A stretch of 49,529 nt of DNA from Meiothermus sp. (lineage in GTDB: Bacteria > Deinococcota > Deinococci > Deinococcales > Thermaceae): assembly GCF_025060375.1 (NCBI RefSeq), contig NZ_JANXCG010000043.1:1-49529 (forward strand). Reading direction: 5' to 3'. Below the pieces are notes generated by a model, which worked only from the letters and a program-made list of their open reading frames with translations, made no database searches and had not been told where the DNA came from. Both the position numbers and the translations under genes were made by a program. Shown one piece after another: positions 2,983-15,805 of the stretch. Numbering within the stretch: the stretch's first letter is position 1; every line of letters starts with the position of its first letter.

Positions 2983-2988
2983 ATTCTA
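2983..2988 (-). promoter_or_regulatory. Possible -10 box for dnaG
   Basis: TAGAAT on the minus strand. Its first three bases are the TAG stop codon of the upstream cyclase/TPR gene. No good -35 hexamer was found, so this is a weak candidate. Confidence 0.35.
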
Positions 2989-5900
2989 ACCTGCCCGCGT
3001 CCGTTCGGGGCAGGGCGCAGCCCTAGCCTGCCAGCGCAACCAGACCCCAAGCACGCCGTACCCCCGAAGTTGTTGGGGCTCAAAGCTGGGCCGCCTGCCG
3101 TCCACGAGCCCCCTGAGGGTCTGTTGCCAGGCCCAGGCCAGAGGGGTTTTGGCCTCGAAATCGAGGAGCCCCAGAGGCTCCTGTCCCTTCATCAGCAAAA
3201 GCTGAGCCTGCAGAAGCCGGGCGTAGCCATGCTGGGTTTCAAAGCCGGAGGCCAGCGTACTCCGAAACAGGTAACGGGAGAGGGCTAGGGCCTTCTGGCT
3301 CGAGCGGCCGCCCAAAAAAAGGCCCAAGCTCACCAGGGCATGGTAGTAGAGGCTGGGGTTGCCCACCTGCCGGGCCAGCCTCGCCGCCCGCTGCAGGTGA
3401 GGGATGGGGTCCTGCCGAAGGTGCCCTTTGCGCAGCCCCAGCGCAAGTTCCCCTACCGCCTGGGCCTCGACGTCCTCCAGCCCCTCCAGCCCCCGCAAAA
3501 GCCGCAACAGCACCTCACTGTCTCGTCCCGAGGCCAGCGCGCGGGCCAAGGCCAGGTAGGCCAACAGGGAGGCAGAAGGGCTGCGGGCCAGCGCGGCCTC
3601 TCCGTAGTAGAGGGCTTCCTCGAGCTGCCCCGACTCCAACAGGTAGCGCAGGCGCACCCGGCTCACCCGCTCAACCGCCCAGGTCGGGGCCCCCTCGAGG
3701 CACAGGAGGCCCTCCTCCAGAAGGCTACCGGCCCACTCGAGCTGGCCCAGGTCCAGGCACAAGGCTGCCCGGCTGCTTTGGTACAGGCTGCGAAACCAGG
3801 CGGGTAGTGCCTCGTGGGGCGGCGGACCCAGGGCCTTCAGGGCCTCTTTGGGCCTGAACTGCCGCCAAAGCGCCTCGGAGCAGATCTGACGGGCCTCAAA
3901 GCACCCCACCGGGCTCTGCGCATGCTCCTCCAGATAGGCCTCGCAGGCCGCCCGGGCTTGCTCCAGCTGGCCCGACCTCAGCCAAAGCCGGGCCTTCACC
4001 AAAAGGGCCGAGCCCTGCAAGGCTGGAGGCAGCCCCTCGAGTAGGGTCAGCGCCTCGTCCGTGGGAGCGGTTCGGGCCAGGGCCAGGGCCAGCCGGGGCT
4101 CCAGCGGCTCCTCCCGCCGAAGCTCCTTGGGTTCGTCCTGGCCCAAGGCCCAGGAGGCCTCCAGGTAAACCGCCCGAGCCCGCTGGCGCAGCACCAAAGG
4201 AGCCTCCGAAGCAGCGAGGAGCCGGCCTGCCAGCTCCAGGGCCTCGCCGTAGCGGCCTAGGGCCAGATGGGCCTCTGCAGCTTCCAGCACAGCCTGGCCG
4301 CGGACCCCACCCTCAGCCAGGCGCAGGGCCTCGAGGTAGCCCAGCAGGGCCTCCGCATAGCGCCCTTCGCTCCAGGCCTGCTGCGCCGCCAGGCGCCACA
4401 ACCGGTAAGCAGCGGCGGTCTCCCCTGCGGCCTCGAGGTGGGCGGCGGCCTCGGACAGCCGCCCCTGGCGCTGGTACCAGCGGGCAGCCTGCTGATGCCA
4501 GCGCCGCGCTTGCTGCCCCCCCACCTGTCCTAAAACCGCCTCTCGCAACCAAGGGACAACAAAGCGAAGCTGGCCCTTCCCGTCGGTCTCGAGAAAGCCT
4601 TCCCCCACCAGGCGGGCCAGGTCGGCCTCCTCCCCCACCAGGTGGCGCACCAGTTCGGGAGGGGCTGTAACCCCCAGCACCGCGGCGGCCTGCAGGGCTA
4701 ACCGGGCCAGGCGGGGAAGAGTGTCCAGGCGCGGCTGGTATAGGGGTATAGGCTCGGGCTCCCCGCTGGGGGTGAGGCTTAGAACCTGCACTGCCAGGGG
4801 ATACCCCCCGCTGGCCTCAACCAGGTGCTCAAGGCTGGCCGTGCCCAGGTCCGGGCGATAACACAGGATCAGGCGCCTGGACTCCTCCAGCGAAAGGGGC
4901 TCTAGGGGCAAAAAGACCACGTCGGGGTCCGCCCCCCAGCGGTTCTGCCGGGCCACCAGCACCAGCAGCACCCCGGCTGGGGCAGGGCGGCGGGTAAACT
5001 CGAGGACCGTCGCATCGGCACTCTGAAGGTCCTCCAAAATCACCACCACCGGCATCCCTCTCGCCAGCCGGCTCAGCAAGGCCCCCCAGGCCTCCACCAG
5101 CAGGGCGTCAAGCTCTGCGGCGGGCAGTGGGGGCCGCTGTCTAAGCCCAACGCTGAACTCCAGCGCCACTTGCAGGTGCTCAGGCAGCTCGAGCTGCCTG
5201 AGCTGGCCAAAGCCTCCGGGCAACAACCCCTGCAGGCCCTGGCGCAAGGTGTCGCGCAGGGGAATACCCTGGATGAGCCGGGGCACCATCACACCCTGCA
5301 CCCCCTCGGGCAAGGTCTCTAGGAAGTAGCGGACCAGGTGTGACTTCCCCACCCCCATAGGCCCGTACACCACCACCCGGCGGCCCTCCCCCCTTCGCGC
5401 CGCCTCCAGGGCCTGCTGCAAAACCTCCAGCTCCCGCTCCCGGCCCACCATATCGAGCGGCCCCTGGCGCATCCCTAGGTACCGGAAGACCACCAAGGGC
5501 TCAGCAAAACCCCTAAAGGGCTGTGGCGGGAGGAGCTCGGTAATGGCCCTCGGCACCAGCCGCACGGTAACCTCGTCGCACCACACCTCACCGGGAGGGG
5601 CCGCCTGGGAGAGGCGCTGGGAGAGGTTGACTGCAGGCCCCAAAACAGTCTGATCGCCGGCCAGCCCTCCCCCTAGAGGGGTACGCAGGACCAGGCCGCT
5701 GGCCACACCCACCCGGGAAGGCAGGGGGCTCGAGGCCACCGTGGCCCTTGCCGCCTCCAGCGCGGCCTGCGCATCGGACTCTTGGCTCCTTGGCACCCCA
5801 AAAACGGCCAGAAAACCGTCTCCGAAGAACTTGTCTATGTGCCCCCCCCGCAGGCGAACTTGGCTGGCCGCAATTTGCAGGGCTTCGTTGGTGGTCTCCC

Positions 5901-6078
5901 AGGTGACCTCCAGAGGATGCCTCAGGGTGTACTCAGTAAAGCGCGATATGTCGAAGAAGAGCGCGCTCACCCAGCGTCGCTCCTGGATCAGCCCGCCCCC
6001 AGGCCGCAGGATCGCCCCACAGCGGAGGCAGCTCTCCTCGCCTTCGGGATTGCTGTGGCCGCAGCGGGGGCAGATCAT
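2986..6078 (-). CDS. Zinc-ribbon / class III nucleotidyl cyclase / ATPase / TPR signalling protein
   Basis: A 1030-residue multidomain protein. A zinc ribbon (Cys3, Cys6, Cys17, Cys20) opens it. A class III cyclase domain (about 35-210) carries both metal-binding aspartates (FFDISRFT, Asp43; FFGDGF, Asp87). It also has the transition-state pair Asn151 and Arg155 in VNLSQR, and a DQTV segment where adenylyl cyclases carry the base-selecting Asp. A STAND/AAA-like ATPase follows, with P-loop GPMGVGKSHL near 240 and a VVILEDLQ Walker B. The rest is a long alanine/leucine-rich helical array of TPR type. The preserved residues suggest it makes cAMP, gated by the ATPase and TPR sensor. That activity is inferred. 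I chose the ATG at 6078 because the zinc ribbon starts there; a TTG at 6108 is the alternative. Confidence 0.85.
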   Translation of the reverse strand: MICPRCGHSNPEGEESCLRCGAILRPGGGLIQERRWVSALFFDISRFTEYTLRHPLEVTWETTNEALQIAASQVRLRGGHIDKFFGDGFLAVFGVPRSQESDAQAALEAARATVASSPLPSRVGVASGLVLRTPLGGGLAGDQTVLGPAVNLSQRLSQAAPPGEVWCDEVTVRLVPRAITELLPPQPFRGFAEPLVVFRYLGMRQGPLDMVGRERELEVLQQALEAARRGEGRRVVVYGPMGVGKSHLVRYFLETLPEGVQGVMVPRLIQGIPLRDTLRQGLQGLLPGGFGQLRQLELPEHLQVALEFSVGLRQRPPLPAAELDALLVEAWGALLSRLARGMPVVVILEDLQSADATVLEFTRRPAPAGVLLVLVARQNRWGADPDVVFLPLEPLSLEESRRLILCYRPDLGTASLEHLVEASGGYPLAVQVLSLTPSGEPEPIPLYQPRLDTLPRLARLALQAAAVLGVTAPPELVRHLVGEEADLARLVGEGFLETDGKGQLRFVVPWLREAVLGQVGGQQARRWHQQAARWYQRQGRLSEAAAHLEAAGETAAAYRLWRLAAQQAWSEGRYAEALLGYLEALRLAEGGVRGQAVLEAAEAHLALGRYGEALELAGRLLAASEAPLVLRQRARAVYLEASWALGQDEPKELRREEPLEPRLALALARTAPTDEALTLLEGLPPALQGSALLVKARLWLRSGQLEQARAACEAYLEEHAQSPVGCFEARQICSEALWRQFRPKEALKALGPPPHEALPAWFRSLYQSSRAALCLDLGQLEWAGSLLEEGLLCLEGAPTWAVERVSRVRLRYLLESGQLEEALYYGEAALARSPSASLLAYLALARALASGRDSEVLLRLLRGLEGLEDVEAQAVGELALGLRKGHLRQDPIPHLQRAARLARQVGNPSLYYHALVSLGLFLGGRSSQKALALSRYLFRSTLASGFETQHGYARLLQAQLLLMKGQEPLGLLDFEAKTPLAWAWQQTLRGLVDGRRPSFEPQQLRGYGVLGVWLRWQARAAPCPERTRAG

Positions 6079-6188
6079 AGATGAGAAAAACCCGTGGGCG
6101 GATGCCAAAAGATGCCGTGAAGAGTACGCAGGCTGTGCAAAATGCAGAGCGGCCCTCCCATCGCGAAAAGGCTTACTGGGCCAAGTCC

Positions 6189-9524: not shown

Positions 9525-10493
9525 ATGGAAACCCTAGAACTCCTTCGCGCCAACCTACTTTCTCCCGCTGTGCTGGCCTTCGCCCTGGGGATAGTGGCCA
9601 CCCTGGTCCGTTCCGACCTCAGGATTCCCGAAGCCCTCTACACCAGCCTCTCCATCTACCTACTCCTGGCCATCGGGCTCAAAGGGGGGGCAGCCCTGGC
9701 CGCCACCCCCTGGAGCGAGCTGTGGAAGCCTGCTTTGGCTACCCTGGCCCTAGGGGTGTTCACCCCGTTGCTCTCCTACGCTGTGCTGCGGCGGCTCGGC
9801 CGAATGGATGTGGTCAACGCCGCAGCCCTGGCCGCCCACTACGGTTCGGTTTCGGCGGTCACCTTCATCGCCGCCAACTCCCTCATGCAATCCGTCAAGC
9901 AGCCGGTGGAGGGCTACCTGCCTACCCTGGTGGCCATCCTGGAGGTTCCGGCCATCGTTATCGCTCTGCTCATCGCCCGCCGCAACCTGAAAGGAGGCCC
10001 TATGGGCGAAGCGGTGCGCGAAATCCTCACCGGTCGCAGCGTCTTGCTGCTGGTGGGGGGATCACTTATCGGCTTCTTGAGCGGACCGGAGGGCCTCAAA
10101 AAGGTAGCTGCGGCTTTTGTGGACCCCTTTCAGGGGGTGCTGGTGCTGTTCCTGCTCGAGCTGGGTATGGTGGCAGCCAAGCGGCTGCGCGACCTGCGCA
10201 GCACCGGGGCCTTCCTCATTGGCTTTGGCCTGGGAATGCCGGTGGTACAAGGTGCGCTTGGGGTCTGGCTGGGCAGCCTGGCCGGGATGTCGGTGGGCGG
10301 GGCCACGGTCCTAGGGGCTATGGCGGCCAGCGCCTCGTACATCGCCGCCCCCGCCGCTGTGCGCATCGCCCTGCCCCAGGCCAACCCTAGCTACTACCTG
10401 ACGGCCTCGTTGGGAATCACCTTTCCCTTCAACTTGACCCTGGGCATTCCCCTCTACTTCGCCCTCTCTCGCTCTCTGCACGGAGGTGCGTGA
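9525..10493 (+). CDS. sbtA: SbtA-like sodium-dependent bicarbonate transporter
   Basis: A 322-residue membrane protein of the SbtA (DUF897) family, which in cyanobacteria imports bicarbonate with sodium. It has about ten hydrophobic helices in two inverted halves. The first half includes SIYLLLAIGLKGG and ALAAHYGSVSAVTF. The second includes MSVGGATVLGAMAASASYIAAPAAVRIALP. These are characteristic repeat signatures of the family. Its TGA stop overlaps the ATG of the PII-like partner, so the two are translationally coupled. A bicarbonate supply would suit PurK and other carboxylating enzymes, but that link is inferred. No ribosome-binding site precedes the ATG. Confidence 0.85.
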   Translation: METLELLRANLLSPAVLAFALGIVATLVRSDLRIPEALYTSLSIYLLLAIGLKGGAALAATPWSELWKPALATLALGVFTPLLSYAVLRRLGRMDVVNAAALAAHYGSVSAVTFIAANSLMQSVKQPVEGYLPTLVAILEVPAIVIALLIARRNLKGGPMGEAVREILTGRSVLLLVGGSLIGFLSGPEGLKKVAAAFVDPFQGVLVLFLLELGMVAAKRLRDLRSTGAFLIGFGLGMPVVQGALGVWLGSLAGMSVGGATVLGAMAASASYIAAPAAVRIALPQANPSYYLTASLGITFPFNLTLGIPLYFALSRSLHGGA

Positions 10494-10795
10494 TGGCGCT
10501 GGTGGCGCGCAAGCTGGTCACCATAATTGCCGAGGGGTTTCTGGAAGAGCGGCTGGTGCGGGAGATAAAACGCCTCGGGGCTAAGGGCTACACCATCACC
10601 GAGGCCCGAGGCGAGGGGAGCCGAGGGGTACGGGCCAGCGAGTGGGAGGGCAACAACATCCGCCTCGAGACCATCGTGAGCCCCGAGGTGGCCGAAAAAA
10701 TTCTGGCCCATCTGGCCGAGGTTTACTTTCCCAACTACGCGGTCATCGCCTACGTAGAGACCGTGGAGGTGGTCCGGGGCGAGAAGTACACCTGA
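10493..10795 (+). CDS. sbtB: SbtB-like PII-family regulator
   Basis: A 100-residue PII-like protein, probably the trimeric regulator of the neighbouring transporter. In cyanobacteria SbtB binds adenine nucleotides, including cAMP and AMP, and docks on SbtA. It begins with [28 protein letters not shown] and has a T-loop region rich in charged residues (ARGEGSRGVRASEWEG). It ends VRGEKYT, without the cysteine-rich redox tail seen in some cyanobacterial SbtB proteins. The ATG at 10493 shares its A with the sbtA stop (TGATG) and has GGAGG seven bases upstream. A GTG one codon earlier lies too close to that site. Confidence 0.82.
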   Translation: MALVARKLVTIIAEGFLEERLVREIKRLGAKGYTITEARGEGSRGVRASEWEGNNIRLETIVSPEVAEKILAHLAEVYFPNYAVIAYVETVEVVRGEKYT

Positions 10796-10820: not shown

Positions 10821-11720
10821 ATGCCCAAACGTATCGTGAGCATCTCCATTGGTTCATCCAAGCGCAACTCCATGGTCGAGGTGCACGTCCTGGGGGAGAC
10901 CTTTCTGCTGGAGCGCATCGGCACCGACGGGAGCTGGGAGAGGGCCATCCAGCTGGTCAGGGAGCTGGACGGGAAGGTAGAGGCTTTCGGGCTGGGAGGG
11001 GCCGACCTGTACGTGTACGCTGGGGGGCGCCGCTACACCTTTCGCGATGCGCGGAGGGTTGCTGCAGCGGCCCAAAAAACCCCCATGGTGGACGGCTCGG
11101 GATTGAAGCACACCCTCGAGCGCCGCGCCGTGCGGATTCTGGAGGGTGAGCTGGGCTGGCAGGGCAAGCGGGTGCTGGTTCCCAGCGCGGTGGACCGCTT
11201 TGGCCTAGCCGAAGCCCTAGACGAAGCAGGGGCCCAGACCCTTTACGGGGACCTCATCTTTGGGCTGGGCCTGCCCATCCCCATCTACCGGCTCTCCCTG
11301 CTGCAGAAGCTGGGCTACCTTTTCCTACCCCTCATCACCCAGCTCCCCTTCCAGTGGCTCTACCCCACCGGGGAAAAACAGGAAAAGCAGGTGCTGGACT
11401 GGCGCCAGCGCTACTTCAGCTGGGCCCAGGTGGTGGCGGGCGACTGGCACTTTATAAGGCGCTTCATGCCCGAAAGGATGGAGGGCAAGGTCATCCTAAC
11501 CAACACCACCACCGAGGAGGACCTGGCGTTTTTGCGGGCTCGAGGCGTGGCCAAGCTCATCACCACCACCCCCCGGCTGGAAGGCCGCAGTTTCGGAACC
11601 AACGTGATGGAGGCCTTCATCGTGGCCCTAGCGGGAAGGTACCCGCTGAGCGAGGCCGACTACCTTAGGTACATAGAGCAGCTCCAGCTAAAGCCCGAGA
11701 TCACCGAACTTCAGGCTTAG
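10821..11720 (+). CDS. Conserved hypothetical protein
   Basis: A 299-residue soluble protein that I do not assign to a known function. Similar Thermales proteins may have been labelled quinate 5-dehydrogenase, but that is a loose recollection and I see no convincing dinucleotide-binding GxGxxG motif to support it. Visible features are a compact beta-rich N-terminus (RIVSISIGSSKRNSMVEVHVLG), FGLGGADLYVYAGGRRY, and VDRFGLAEALDEAGAQTLYGDLIFGLGLPIPIY. A hydrophobic LLQKLGYLFLPLITQLPF stretch lies midway. A C-terminal GVAKLITTTPRLEGRSFGTNVMEAFIVALAG segment resembles a nucleotide- or sugar-binding fold. It has a TAGACT leaderless promoter. Its last 20 bases overlap the end of the convergent GH13 gene. 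Confidence 0.6.
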   Translation: MPKRIVSISIGSSKRNSMVEVHVLGETFLLERIGTDGSWERAIQLVRELDGKVEAFGLGGADLYVYAGGRRYTFRDARRVAAAAQKTPMVDGSGLKHTLERRAVRILEGELGWQGKRVLVPSAVDRFGLAEALDEAGAQTLYGDLIFGLGLPIPIYRLSLLQKLGYLFLPLITQLPFQWLYPTGEKQEKQVLDWRQRYFSWAQVVAGDWHFIRRFMPERMEGKVILTNTTTEEDLAFLRARGVAKLITTTPRLEGRSFGTNVMEAFIVALAGRYPLSEADYLRYIEQLQLKPEITELQA

Positions 11721-14700
11721 GGAAGAGCGTCCGGAGGTACTCGGCCAGGCCCAGCCGGTCGCCCGCGGCCAGGTAGGCGGCCTGCTGGGGCCAGGTGGGT
11801 AGGCTGGAAGCGCCGCGCCGCCCGGCCGCAACCAAGGCCCGGCGCAGGTCCTCCAGGCTGGCCTTGGCAAGCTGGGCATAGGTGGTGAAGCCCGCTGCGC
11901 GCAAGGCCTGGGCCGTGCTGGGCCCGATGCCCCAGATGCGGGTAAGGTCGTCCCCTGCCCTGCGGGCCCGGGGGGGCTTCAGGGCGGCCAGGTAGGCCAG
12001 AAGCCGGTAGCCCACCTCCTCCGCCGTCCGGTTCAGGCGGGCCTCGAGGGACGACCAAGCCCTCCGCAAAGCCCCCCTGCGCGCGGCCGAAACCCCCTCG
12101 GCATAGGCCAGGGCCAAGGCCCTCCCCCTTAGGGCCGCCCAGAGGAGGGCATGGGCCTCGCGGTTGAAGTATGTCTCCCCAGCGAAGCGGTTAACCCCCA
12201 GAAATTCCTGCCAGCGCGGGTCTCGCAGCAGGCGAGGGTAGAACCGGGGCTCCCTGGAGAGGCCGGGGGTAGCCAGCACCCCTACCAGGCCAGCCGCCCG
12301 CCGGGCTGCCTCAGCCTCCAGCCCGGCCTGCTGGAAGGCCTCCTGAAGAAGCCCCCTCAGGCGCCACTCCTCTAGATGGGCCCCCAACCCTGGGACCAAG
12401 GCCCAGCCCAAGAGGGCCATCCTCACCTCCGGCCGAGGCTCAGTGCGAACTACCCAAAGCGCCCCCTCCAACCGCCGCAGAACGCGCGCGGGCGGGGGAA
12501 GCCTCAGGGCCGGAGCAAAGCGCCCAAGGCTTTGGTAGAGGGCGCGAAGGTCTTCCCGCAAGGCCTCGTCTGGGGAACCCCCACGCGACAACCGACGCAG
12601 CCGCTCCGGGGTGATCAGCCTGCGCAAAGGCGCGTGGACGGGGGCCAGCCATAGGGAAAGCCGCGCCTCCTCCAGGCTCGGCACCCCCTGCTCCCCCAGG
12701 ACCTCCCAAAGCTGGGCATAGCTGCCATCCGCATCGTGCACCTCGCGCCAGTCCATGAACACCCGCCGCTGGTAGGGGCCCAGCTCGAGGCAGAGCCCTC
12801 CCTCCAGAAGGGCGCGGTTGGGCCGCAGGTACTCCAGCCCTGTCACGCGGTCGCGAAAGAGGCTGTAGTAACCCTCCGCCGGGCGCAACCCCAAGCCCTC
12901 CGCCAAGCCCACCCGGCGCACCTCCCGCCCCCCCGGGGTCTTGAAGAGCTGGGGCACCGAACGGCGCAGGCAAACCCGGGCAACGGCGTTTTTGTTGTGG
13001 TAGACCACCAAGGCCCGCACCTCGCCCCGCCGGTTGGAGTAGGCGAAAACGTCCTGGTTCACCCCATCTTCCCCCTCGGCATCGTACAAGACGAAGTTCT
13101 CTACCTCAGCGAAAAGCGCCCGGTTTTTGAGGAGAGGTGCGATCTGCTCCTGGTGGTAGGCCACGAACCCCTCGTCCGGCGCCTCTTCGTAATAGGCCCG
13201 GGCGTACTCCATCCCGTAGCGTTCAGCCAGACCCTCCACCTGGCCGTGGGCCAGCATGGGCAGGCCCGGCAGGGTGGCGCAGAGGGTCATCACGCCAAAG
13301 TACTTGTCCCCCTTTCCAAACTGCTCCAGCGCGGTCTTCTCATCCGGATTGCTCAGGAAGTTCACGAAACGCTTGAGAATTTCCGGCTCAAACTCCAAGG
13401 TGTTCTTCAAGACCTCCCGGTAGCGGGCGTTCTCCTCATCGCGCAGCATGTTCATGAAGGCCGAGTTGTAGACCCGGTGCATCCCCAGGCTGCGCACAAA
13501 ATAACCCTCCATCATCCAGAAAGCCTCAGCCAAAAGCAGGGTGTCGGGCGCCTCCTGGGCCACCCGGTCCACCACCTCCCGCCAAAACTCCTGGGGCATG
13601 GCCCGGTCAAAATCCTCCTGAGGCATGGCGTGTTCGGCCCGGCTGGGCACCGAAGGGCCCCAGGGTGACCCCCCCGGTGGGGGCCACCACAACCGCTGGT
13701 AGTGCCGCCTGGTTAGGGTCATGGCCGCGTCAAAGCGAAGGATGGGGAAACGACGGGCCACCTTGAGGATGGTCTGGATAACCGCCTCTCGCACCTCGGG
13801 GAGCAGGTAGTTGAGCTGGGCAGTATCGTTCCAGGGCATGGCGGTGCCGTCGTTGCCATGGTAGATGTAGCGCACCTCACCGCTTTGTCGGTCCACCCGC
13901 TTGAAGACCACCGCCGCATCGGACCGGTCGTAGTAGTGGTCCTCCAGGTAGAGGCCCACCCGGGGGTCTTCGCTGAGATCAGGCCCGCTAAAGCTGTAGC
14001 TGGGAAAGGGAGGGTAGGGTAGGCTGATGAACCAATCGGGGTGTTCCACCACCCAGCGACCGTCCATTGCGGTGTGGTTGGGCACCATGTCCGCCGCCAG
14101 GCGTATGCCATACCGGGCCGCCTTCCGGCGCAGCACCTCCAGCGCCGCCTCCCCCCCCAGCGCTTCGGCGATGGTGTAGTCGTATACAGCGTAGGCCGAG
14201 GCCAGAGCCTCGGGGTTCCCCATCCGGCGCTTGATCTGGCGGGAGGCCCGGCTGCGCTCCCAAAGCCCAATCAACCACAGGGCGTTCACACCCCAGTCTT
14301 GAAGCCGCTTCAGCTCCTCCTCAGGAATGGCGTCCAGGGTCTGGATGGGGCGGGCGTACCTTTTGGAAAGCTGGTCGAGCCAGACAAAGGTGTTCTTGGC
14401 TAGCAGCACCACCTGCGGCATCCAGTCCAGGTCAGGGCTGAAGGCCTCGGGCTCGAGCTGCGCGCTGGCCCAAAACCGCTCCCGATCGAGCATCGGGCTC
14501 TCGGCGGGTCTTTGGGGAGGTCCAAAACCCACCGGCACGGCGAACGAGCGGGCCGCCTCACGCACCACATCCAGCGCCACCAGAAGCCGATAGTAAATAG
14601 CCCCCAGCCGCCCCCCAAAGCGCTCCAGCAAAAAGCGAAGCTGGGCCTCTAGGGAGTCGGGGTAGAGCCGGGCCGGCAGGCGCAGGGTTTGGAGGAGCGA

Positions 14701-15297
14701 CGCCCCCCCCTCCCCAAAGGCGGGCTGGGACTCAAAGAAGCGCTCAAGGTGGAGGACAACCGTAGGGTAGGCTGTGGAGGCCTCGAGGCTGGCGTCGTCA
14801 AAAAGCTCTAGAAAAGGCCCAAAGGCCGGATTGGCGTTGGCCAAATGGAGCATGAGGAGTTCCTCCAGGAGGACCTCGCGGTGGGGAATCCCCTCGGTCT
14901 GGCCCTCCATGTACGCCTCCAGGCTCAGCTCCCCTCGGTAAACCCTAAGAGGCGGAAACTCCTCAGCGAAAGCCCGCAGGGTTCTCTCCAGCACCTCTCC
15001 CCCCACCCGCTCCGCCAGGTACCCAAGGGCCGCCCGCATCAGCCCCGGGTGCTCCTCCAGGTACTGCCGCATCAAAAGGTGAAGTACCTCATCGATGAGG
15101 CCCATGGCGTTGATCTGGGCCGGGCTCACCGCCTGCTCGGGGGGCCTTCTGGCGTTCATGGCCGCAGCAAAGCGCCGGGCCGCTTGGAAGTCGGCCAAAA
15201 TCACATTCCCGCTCAGGGAGAAAAGCGAGAGGTCAAAGCGGTAGCGGTCGCGCGCCCGCCTAGAAACGTGAAACTCAAAGACTCCCGGCTGCCTCAT
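11701..15297 (-). CDS. GH13 amylase-family protein with C-terminal helix-hairpin-helix domain
   Basis: A 1198-residue protein. About 330 N-terminal residues match nothing I recognise. A GH13 (alpha-amylase family) barrel then carries region I (DMVPNHT, near 402), region II (LRFDAAM, nucleophile Asp near 523) and region III (LLLAEAFW, acid/base Glu near 589). Region IV reads FLSNPDEKTA, where the usual NHD is NPD. About 400 further residues include a beta domain and a helical part. The last 80 residues (from about 1110) are a helix-hairpin-helix module (DDLTRIWGIGPSTAQALRAA) of the kind seen in nucleic-acid-binding proteins. The enzyme probably acts on alpha-glucans or trehalose-like sugars, with substrate unknown. 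I chose the ATG at 15297 for its GGAGGAGGG site; the ATG at 15369 lacks one. Confidence 0.8.
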   Translation of the reverse strand: MRQPGVFEFHVSRRARDRYRFDLSLFSLSGNVILADFQAARRFAAAMNARRPPEQAVSPAQINAMGLIDEVLHLLMRQYLEEHPGLMRAALGYLAERVGGEVLERTLRAFAEEFPPLRVYRGELSLEAYMEGQTEGIPHREVLLEELLMLHLANANPAFGPFLELFDDASLEASTAYPTVVLHLERFFESQPAFGEGGASLLQTLRLPARLYPDSLEAQLRFLLERFGGRLGAIYYRLLVALDVVREAARSFAVPVGFGPPQRPAESPMLDRERFWASAQLEPEAFSPDLDWMPQVVLLAKNTFVWLDQLSKRYARPIQTLDAIPEEELKRLQDWGVNALWLIGLWERSRASRQIKRRMGNPEALASAYAVYDYTIAEALGGEAALEVLRRKAARYGIRLAADMVPNHTAMDGRWVVEHPDWFISLPYPPFPSYSFSGPDLSEDPRVGLYLEDHYYDRSDAAVVFKRVDRQSGEVRYIYHGNDGTAMPWNDTAQLNYLLPEVREAVIQTILKVARRFPILRFDAAMTLTRRHYQRLWWPPPGGSPWGPSVPSRAEHAMPQEDFDRAMPQEFWREVVDRVAQEAPDTLLLAEAFWMMEGYFVRSLGMHRVYNSAFMNMLRDEENARYREVLKNTLEFEPEILKRFVNFLSNPDEKTALEQFGKGDKYFGVMTLCATLPGLPMLAHGQVEGLAERYGMEYARAYYEEAPDEGFVAYHQEQIAPLLKNRALFAEVENFVLYDAEGEDGVNQDVFAYSNRRGEVRALVVYHNKNAVARVCLRRSVPQLFKTPGGREVRRVGLAEGLGLRPAEGYYSLFRDRVTGLEYLRPNRALLEGGLCLELGPYQRRVFMDWREVHDADGSYAQLWEVLGEQGVPSLEEARLSLWLAPVHAPLRRLITPERLRRLSRGGSPDEALREDLRALYQSLGRFAPALRLPPPARVLRRLEGALWVVRTEPRPEVRMALLGWALVPGLGAHLEEWRLRGLLQEAFQQAGLEAEAARRAAGLVGVLATPGLSREPRFYPRLLRDPRWQEFLGVNRFAGETYFNREAHALLWAALRGRALALAYAEGVSAARRGALRRAWSSLEARLNRTAEEVGYRLLAYLAALKPPRARRAGDDLTRIWGIGPSTAQALRAAGFTTYAQLAKASLEDLRRALVAAGRRGASSLPTWPQQAAYLAAGDRLGLAEYLRTLFPKPEVR

Positions 15298-15317
15298 ACC
15301 CTCCTCCGCTCGCCCCA

Positions 15318-15323
15318 AGTCTA
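15318..15323 (-). promoter_or_regulatory. -10 box of the GH13-HhH gene
   Basis: TAGACT on the minus strand, 20 bases upstream of the ATG at 15297. Transcription from here would include the GGAGGAGGG ribosome-binding site and exclude the longer ATG at 15369. It lies within 40 bases of the divergent promoter of the SRPBCC gene. Confidence 0.45.
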
Positions 15324-15355
15324 TCAGCCCCGGGTTCAGGGAATTCCCCACCTGG

Positions 15356-15367
15356 TAAACTAACCCC
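15356..15367 (+). promoter_or_regulatory. Leaderless -10 box
   Basis: TAAACT at 15356-15361 followed by six bases and the ATG at 15368. Confidence 0.5.
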
Positions 15368-15805
15368 ATGCCAGAGGTCTACGCTGAGCTCTACATCCCC
15401 AAACCCCCTCAGGAGGTCTACCGCGCAGCCCGGGACTTGGCCGGGCTGAAGCCCTATCTAAAGGATGTGGAAACCCTGGAGGTGCTGGAGGACAAGGGCA
15501 GCACCTCCCGCACCCGCTTCGTGGCAGTAGCCATGGGCAAGAAGGTCCAGTGGGTTGAGGAGGAAAGGTGGTTTGACGAGGAACTGCGCAACGAGTTCGA
15601 AAGCACCGAAGGTGACTTCGACCTCTACCGGGGCACTTGGACCTTCCTTCCGGAAGGGGACGGCACCAAAGCCGCCCTGCGGCTGGAGTACGAGCTGAAC
15701 ATCCCCATCTTCGGGGGCCTGCTGCAAAAGCTGGTCAAAAAGCTCATGCAGGAGAACGTAGAAAGCCTTCTGGCTGGCCTAAAAGAGCGCTGCTTGGCCG
15801 CCTAA
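15368..15805 (+). CDS. SRPBCC (START-like) family protein
   Basis: A 145-residue single-domain protein of the SRPBCC/START superfamily, which folds around a hydrophobic ligand cavity. The pattern fits the polyketide cyclase / COQ10 / RatA group. The N-terminal strand ends YIPKPPQEVYRAARDLAGLKPYL. A beta-sheet with VEEERWFDEELRNEFESTEGDFDLYRGTWTF follows, and a long C-terminal amphipathic helix (LLQKLVKKLMQENVESLLAGLKERCLAA) closes it. It has a leaderless TAAACT promoter divergent from the GH13 gene. The ligand cannot be deduced; lipid or quinone binding is the usual guess for this group. It precedes cysS but is separated from it by a promoter and leader. Confidence 0.75.
   Translation: MPEVYAELYIPKPPQEVYRAARDLAGLKPYLKDVETLEVLEDKGSTSRTRFVAVAMGKKVQWVEEERWFDEELRNEFESTEGDFDLYRGTWTFLPEGDGTKAALRLEYELNIPIFGGLLQKLVKKLMQENVESLLAGLKERCLAA

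Follow-up and report, generated by a model that had tools for sequence, protein, structure and literature searches.

The window, a 49,529-nt stretch of Meiothermus sp. DNA, encodes a GH13 enzyme whose core belongs to a separate, divergent GH13 lineage. We lean towards reading the protein as a retaining enzyme of glycogen metabolism, most likely an undescribed type of glycogen branching enzyme that replaces GlgB or the GH57 branching enzyme, the branching specificity being the part that we infer. The broader proposal, to which we give an even chance, makes this lineage a third, hitherto unrecognised kind of glycogen branching enzyme. Its members have about 900–1200 residues, their helical N-terminal domain has a fold that is apparently new, and they would take over from GlgB and its GH57 counterpart in Meiothermus, in further Deinococcota and in Chloroflexota, KSB1 and additional phyla. 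The C-terminal helix-hairpin-helix (HHH), which had drawn attention to the gene, is a borrowed module; the enzyme itself is more unusual than its tail.

Gene, domains and catalytic core

The open reading frame (11701..15369, reverse strand) comprises 1222 codons from the first ATG. The ATG at 15297 yields a protein of 1198 residues and matches the start position in most relatives; the upstream in-frame ATG at 15369, which yields 1222 residues, overlaps the start of a divergent gene at 15368. The genome is Meiothermus-like, with a protein identity to M. luteus of 88%. Numbered from the ATG at 15297, the features are:

11701..15297, reverse strand: whole gene, 1198 residues plus stop (ORF call, start of relatives)
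14422..15297, reverse strand: N-terminal all-helical domain, residues 1-292 (family conservation; no Pfam, PDB-sequence or PDB-fold match)
13108..14421, reverse strand: GH13 (beta/alpha)8 barrel, residues ~293-730 (Pfam, AlphaFold2 model, Foldseek)
14074..14091, reverse strand: region I DMVPNH, residues 403-408 (D403 and V405-H408 invariant)
13729..13737, reverse strand: region II RFD, residues 521-523, nucleophile D523 (R521 and D523 invariant)
13525..13527, reverse strand: region III, acid/base E591 (invariant)
13339..13350, reverse strand: region IV NPDE, residues 650-653, transition-state Asp kept and the usual His replaced by Pro (101 of 102 relatives)
12736..13107, reverse strand: beta-sandwich after the barrel, residues ~731-854 (model secondary structure)
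11971..12735, reverse strand: inner C-terminal helical domain, residues ~855-1109 (model, alignment of relatives)
11704..11970, reverse strand: linker and HHH tail, residues ~1110-1198 (HHH_5 core 11839-11952)

The AlphaFold2 model of the 1198-residue chain has a mean pLDDT of 87.6; in it the N-terminal helices span residues ~13-277, the barrel ~298-730, the beta-sandwich 736-854 and the second helical domain 859-1106. The N-terminal domain modelled alone reaches a pLDDT of 87.9 and a pTM of 0.82, and Foldseek against the PDB returned no significant match to it (best E 0.73); it apparently adopts a new fold. Profile searches with the N-terminal and inner C-terminal parts gave only chance-level matches in the PDB and no Pfam family, in agreement with an initial annotation of this DNA that could place neither part. 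Family members of about 905–950 residues lack the inner C-terminal helical domain; thus, the minimal unit consists of the N-terminal domain, the barrel and the beta-sandwich.

The barrel with regions I–III, proposed in the same annotation, is borne out by a match to Pfam Alpha-amylase (PF00128; residues 351-709 in the 1222-residue numbering, E 1.2e-7, 31.8 bits against a cut-off of 22) and by the motifs DMVPNH, RFD and AE, to which region IV, NPDE, can now be added. Residues D403, H408, R521, D523, E591 and D652 are invariant across 82 aligned relatives. Specifically, the protein has the TIM barrel, Asp nucleophile, Glu acid/base, Asp stabiliser and Arg two residues before the nucleophile that define GH13 membership. 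The His that usually, though not universally, precedes the region IV Asp in GH13 is absent, and NPDE occupies this position in 101 of the 102 family members. Among three GlgE copies compared, two have Pro before the region IV Asp (NTPD) and one has His, so Pro in place of His implies neither inactivity nor exclusion from GH13.

In Foldseek searches the barrel matches GH13 structures (E ~5e-13), all of them general GH13 matches, with TreS and GlgE among the better ones. By our reading of the motif, region III looks more like that of TreS than that of GlgB. The family profile matches PDB chains mostly near region I, and neither search found a close relative among solved structures. In a scan of genome contigs, the lineage was detected in at least 580 genome stretches from several phyla, and the 80 relatives retained represent Chloroflexota, Deinococcota, KSB1, Deltaproteobacteria, Spirochaetota, Acidobacteriota and Planctomycetota, among other groups. 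No description of the lineage was found in the literature searched.

Each of the 18 genomes searched from the genus encodes the GH13 part and the HHH in a single frame. This establishes the fusion reported in the initial annotation as genuine and rules out a sequencing or assembly artefact. The Meiothermus hypogaeus copy (L034:5920-9887, identical to L103) is split into two overlapping frames of 363 and 985 residues, by a frameshift or a sequencing error. In an Anaerolineae metagenome-assembled genome (MAG; L024:896-6382), the frame of an AAA_16-TPR protein continues into a family member and reaches the contig end after 1829 residues, which may reflect a fusion.

Other genes of the window were also noted. 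At 9525-10795 (forward strand), genes for an SbtA-family bicarbonate transporter (PF05982, E 1e-114) and a small P-II-family protein (PF00543) overlap by 4 bases, which is the arrangement of an SbtA-SbtB pair, here in a non-cyanobacterium. The pair is followed at 10821-11720 (forward strand) by a gene for a 299-residue protein with no Pfam or NCBIfam match; 20 bases at the 3' end of this gene are shared with the end of the enzyme gene. A 1040-residue protein encoded at 2986-6108 (reverse strand) combines a zinc ribbon, a cyclase-like domain, an AAA_16 ATPase and TPR repeats.

Distribution, gene neighbourhoods and the branching reading

The distribution of the family was compared with that of known branching enzymes in 111 Deinococcota genomes, 98 GlgA-positive and 13 GlgA-negative. 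Absence here stands for the lack of a profile match, and the assemblies vary in completeness. The family occurs in glycogen-making genomes that lack the other branching enzymes: no known branching enzyme was found in 56 GlgA-positive genomes, and 53 of these have the family, whereas 38 of the 42 with such an enzyme lack it and the remaining 4 carry both. The association is strong (Fisher p 4e-19; genus level p 7e-5), although the genomes are related, so that the p-values overstate independence, and the independent switches between enzyme types number only a handful. Among GlgA-negative genomes, 11 of 13 have neither the family nor a known branching enzyme, and the two exceptions are MAGs that are 72–77% complete. 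Three GlgA-positive genomes have neither enzyme type: G100 and G101 of family f5, and G003 of family f2. G101 and G003 are incomplete MAGs, one 79% and the other 91% complete, and G100, at 96% completeness, has a GlgA match that is broken.

The pattern is also seen between genera. The genus that we take, from the control genome and its uniformity, to be Thermus (g4) has the GH57 branching enzyme and lacks the family, and most Meiothermus show the reverse. Other GH57 proteins, which lack the C-domain of the branching enzyme, are present in family f3 and in some Meiothermus. The source genome itself contains GlgA, GlgP and GH77. Searches of it found no GlgB (TIGR01515, E 1e-60), no GH57 branching enzyme, no CBM48 (PF02922) protein and no GlgE N/S domain (PF11896). 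By our reading, the remaining GH13 proteins of this genome resemble an amylosucrase, an oligo-1,6-glucosidase-like enzyme and a neopullulanase-like enzyme.

Gene neighbourhoods place the family beside two routes of glycogen synthesis. Two KSB1 contigs have an operon-like order of family gene, GlgE and TreS, with the family gene first and gaps of ~3–14 bases. In one Deinococcota genome the family gene is divergent from GlgE-TreS, and in six further Deinococcota genomes TreS adjoins it. In Chloroflexota and Spirochaetales, GlgA, GlgC, GH77 or GH57-DUF3536 adjoin the family gene at ~14 of the 75 loci, many of the 75 being on truncated contigs and several being mutually related. No GlgB or GH57 branching enzyme was found in the glycogen-gene neighbourhoods of the family. 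The GlgA and GlgE pathways share the branching enzyme GlgB (PMC5042117). Because the family joins both GlgA and GlgE clusters and occurs in genomes without GlgB or the GH57 enzyme, branching is the best reading of its role.

Neither the distribution nor the neighbourhoods can tell branching apart from some other step of glucan remodelling. A plausible, if less probable, alternative is that the protein is an alpha-glucan GH13 enzyme of other specificity that acts beside glycogen synthesis without serving as the branching enzyme; it might, for example, debranch glucans, transfer maltosyl or oligosaccharide units, or isomerise in the manner of TreS. The same glycogen-gene neighbourhoods are consistent with it, as are the likeness of the region IV NPD to the NTPD/NTHD of GlgE and the rank of TreS and GlgE among the structural matches. 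CBM48-type debranching enzymes, too, are missing in most Meiothermus. However, Thermus mostly lacks CBM48 proteins and yet also lacks the family, so the family is predicted by a missing branching enzyme and not by a missing CBM48-type debranching enzyme. Moreover, GlgE and TreS adjoin the family gene in KSB1 and in one Deinococcota genome, so the family does not replace them.

Some points weigh against the branching reading: the family is not close to GlgB, it has no CBM48, its region III is nearer to that of TreS, and among the GlgA-positive genomes three have neither enzyme type and four have both. The protein shares with GlgB (GH13; TIGR01515) the barrel and the retaining catalytic residues, and a common role is suggested by their complementary occurrence across genomes and by the GlgA or GlgE-TreS neighbourhoods that they share. 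Unlike GlgB, which has a CBM48 before the barrel, it has no CBM48 (PF02922) and instead carries the 292-residue N-terminal and inner C-terminal helical domains and NPDE in region IV; no TIGR01515 or other GlgB model is among the NCBIfam matches listed for it. The same role is proposed for it as for the Thermus-type GH57 branching enzyme (PF03065 plus PF09210), found in Thermus where the family is absent, but that enzyme belongs to a different fold family with no sequence relation, and neither PF03065 nor PF09210 is among the Pfam matches of the window protein. TreS and GlgE also share the GH13 barrel, and two of three GlgE copies share the Pro before the region IV Asp. They are neighbours in several genomes, and since they adjoin the family in the same clusters, their function differs from that of the window protein, in which no TreS model matches at cut-off and the GlgE N/S domain PF11896 is missing. 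Within a known superfamily the enzyme is new in architecture, and it is a candidate for a third type of glycogen branching enzyme.

The helix-hairpin-helix tail

The C-terminal HHH recognised in the initial annotation is supported by a match to Pfam HHH_5 (PF14520; residues 1140-1177 in the 1222-residue numbering, E 4.3e-7, 30.8 bits against a cut-off of 27), with a GIGP hairpin between two helices. In the full-chain model the module is helical, spans residues 1126-1191 at a pLDDT of ~90–96, and follows a low-confidence linker at 1110-1114. It is present in 19 of the 102 non-redundant family members, all from Deinococcota. In the tree of the core enzyme, the HHH carriers and genus g2 form one well-supported clade made up of Thermaceae and family f3. 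This fits one gain in Thermaceae and family f3, and one probable loss in the sister genus g2. The HHH is a late add-on to the GH13 family. A tree of the module copies neither recovered nor contradicted a single origin of the GH13-borne copies.

The same module occurs at the C-terminus of ribosomal proteins L4, L19 and S1 and of membrane coiled-coil proteins in Deinococcota, in copies 37–50% identical to that of the window. By profile match it also ends reaction-centre protein-O from the Dinoroseobacter RC-LH1 complex (PDB 8yy9 chain O, E 1.7e-14) and NuoE (PDB 9wqv chain a, E 1.5e-8), where its carriers are membrane and respiratory proteins. The module is invisible in the density of protein-O, and the authors of that structure describe its function there as obscure (PMC12079452). 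Its presence on many unrelated proteins marks the module as a mobile appendage and does not imply nucleic-acid binding; we therefore rejected the HHH as a sign of DNA binding.

L4, L19 and S1 proteins with the tail were located in other Deinococcota (L117:1533-2603, L118:622-1674, L122:722-2056, L123:883-1716 and L121:2984-5428), where a Lys/Ala/Pro-rich linker often precedes it. The HHH-ended membrane-anchored coiled-coil proteins have ~660–820 residues (L115:689-3004, L116:1835-4303, L125:591-2933 and L126:1916-3892), and most contain a second, weaker HHH copy ahead of the terminal one.

GH13-borne copies in the genus have a net charge of +4 to +10, compared with 0 to -8 for most copies borne by other proteins, a contrast that also holds within single genomes (G035 and G040). 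With this basic charge, the tail may meet an acidic partner. Another arrangement would be pairing of the HHH with another HHH protein, for example the membrane coiled-coil protein of other Meiothermus, which would anchor the enzyme at the membrane. Several Meiothermus encode such a protein, and the net charges are opposite where compared. However, the source genome contains no second good copy of the module, the only other match being weak (E 0.003, 45 residues), and self-pairing alone would remain there. Pairing with a second protein was accordingly rejected as a general rule, and we consider this arrangement unlikely.

The initial annotation had raised the possibility that the enzyme also binds nucleic acid or a protein scaffold. 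The scaffold half of this suggestion fits the data at least as well as the other, and the nucleic-acid half is unsupported, given a promiscuous module that most of the family lacks. Tethering of glycogen metabolism to the nucleoid or to RNA through the HHH would draw on the GIGP hairpin, on the basic charge, which is suggestive only, and on the Lys/Ala/Pro-rich linker that precedes the HHH in several GH13 relatives. We regard it as less likely still than HHH pairing: the module ends proteins with no DNA role (NuoE, protein-O and membrane coiled-coils), is absent from most GH13 relatives and, probably by loss, from genus g2, and in the source genome its hairpin lacks the Lys after GIGP.

Proposed mechanism and implications

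As a branching enzyme, the protein would act by the retaining GH13 mechanism. Specifically, D523 would attack an alpha-1,4 glucan to form a covalent glycosyl-enzyme, with E591 as the acid/base and D652 of NPDE stabilising the transition state. The acceptor of the cleaved chain would then be a 6-OH on the same chain or on a different one, making the enzyme an alpha-1,4 to alpha-1,6 glucan transferase. The beta-sandwich and the N-terminal helical domain probably shape glucan binding. The mobile HHH was added at the C-terminus in Thermaceae and a sister family, where it would most likely dock the enzyme on a presumed partner without a part in catalysis.

The mobile HHH occurs on ribosomal, respiratory, photosynthetic and carbohydrate proteins, and this enzyme is a soluble system for studying it. 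If the branching reading is true, a branching enzyme from a thermophile would be of interest for starch modification, and a function would be assigned to a widespread GH13 lineage for which there is no specific family model. That branching enzymes seem to be missing is a recognised puzzle, which has been raised for archaea (PMC11046441). The branching reading, if true, would also explain how genomes that make glycogen seemingly do so without a branching enzyme.
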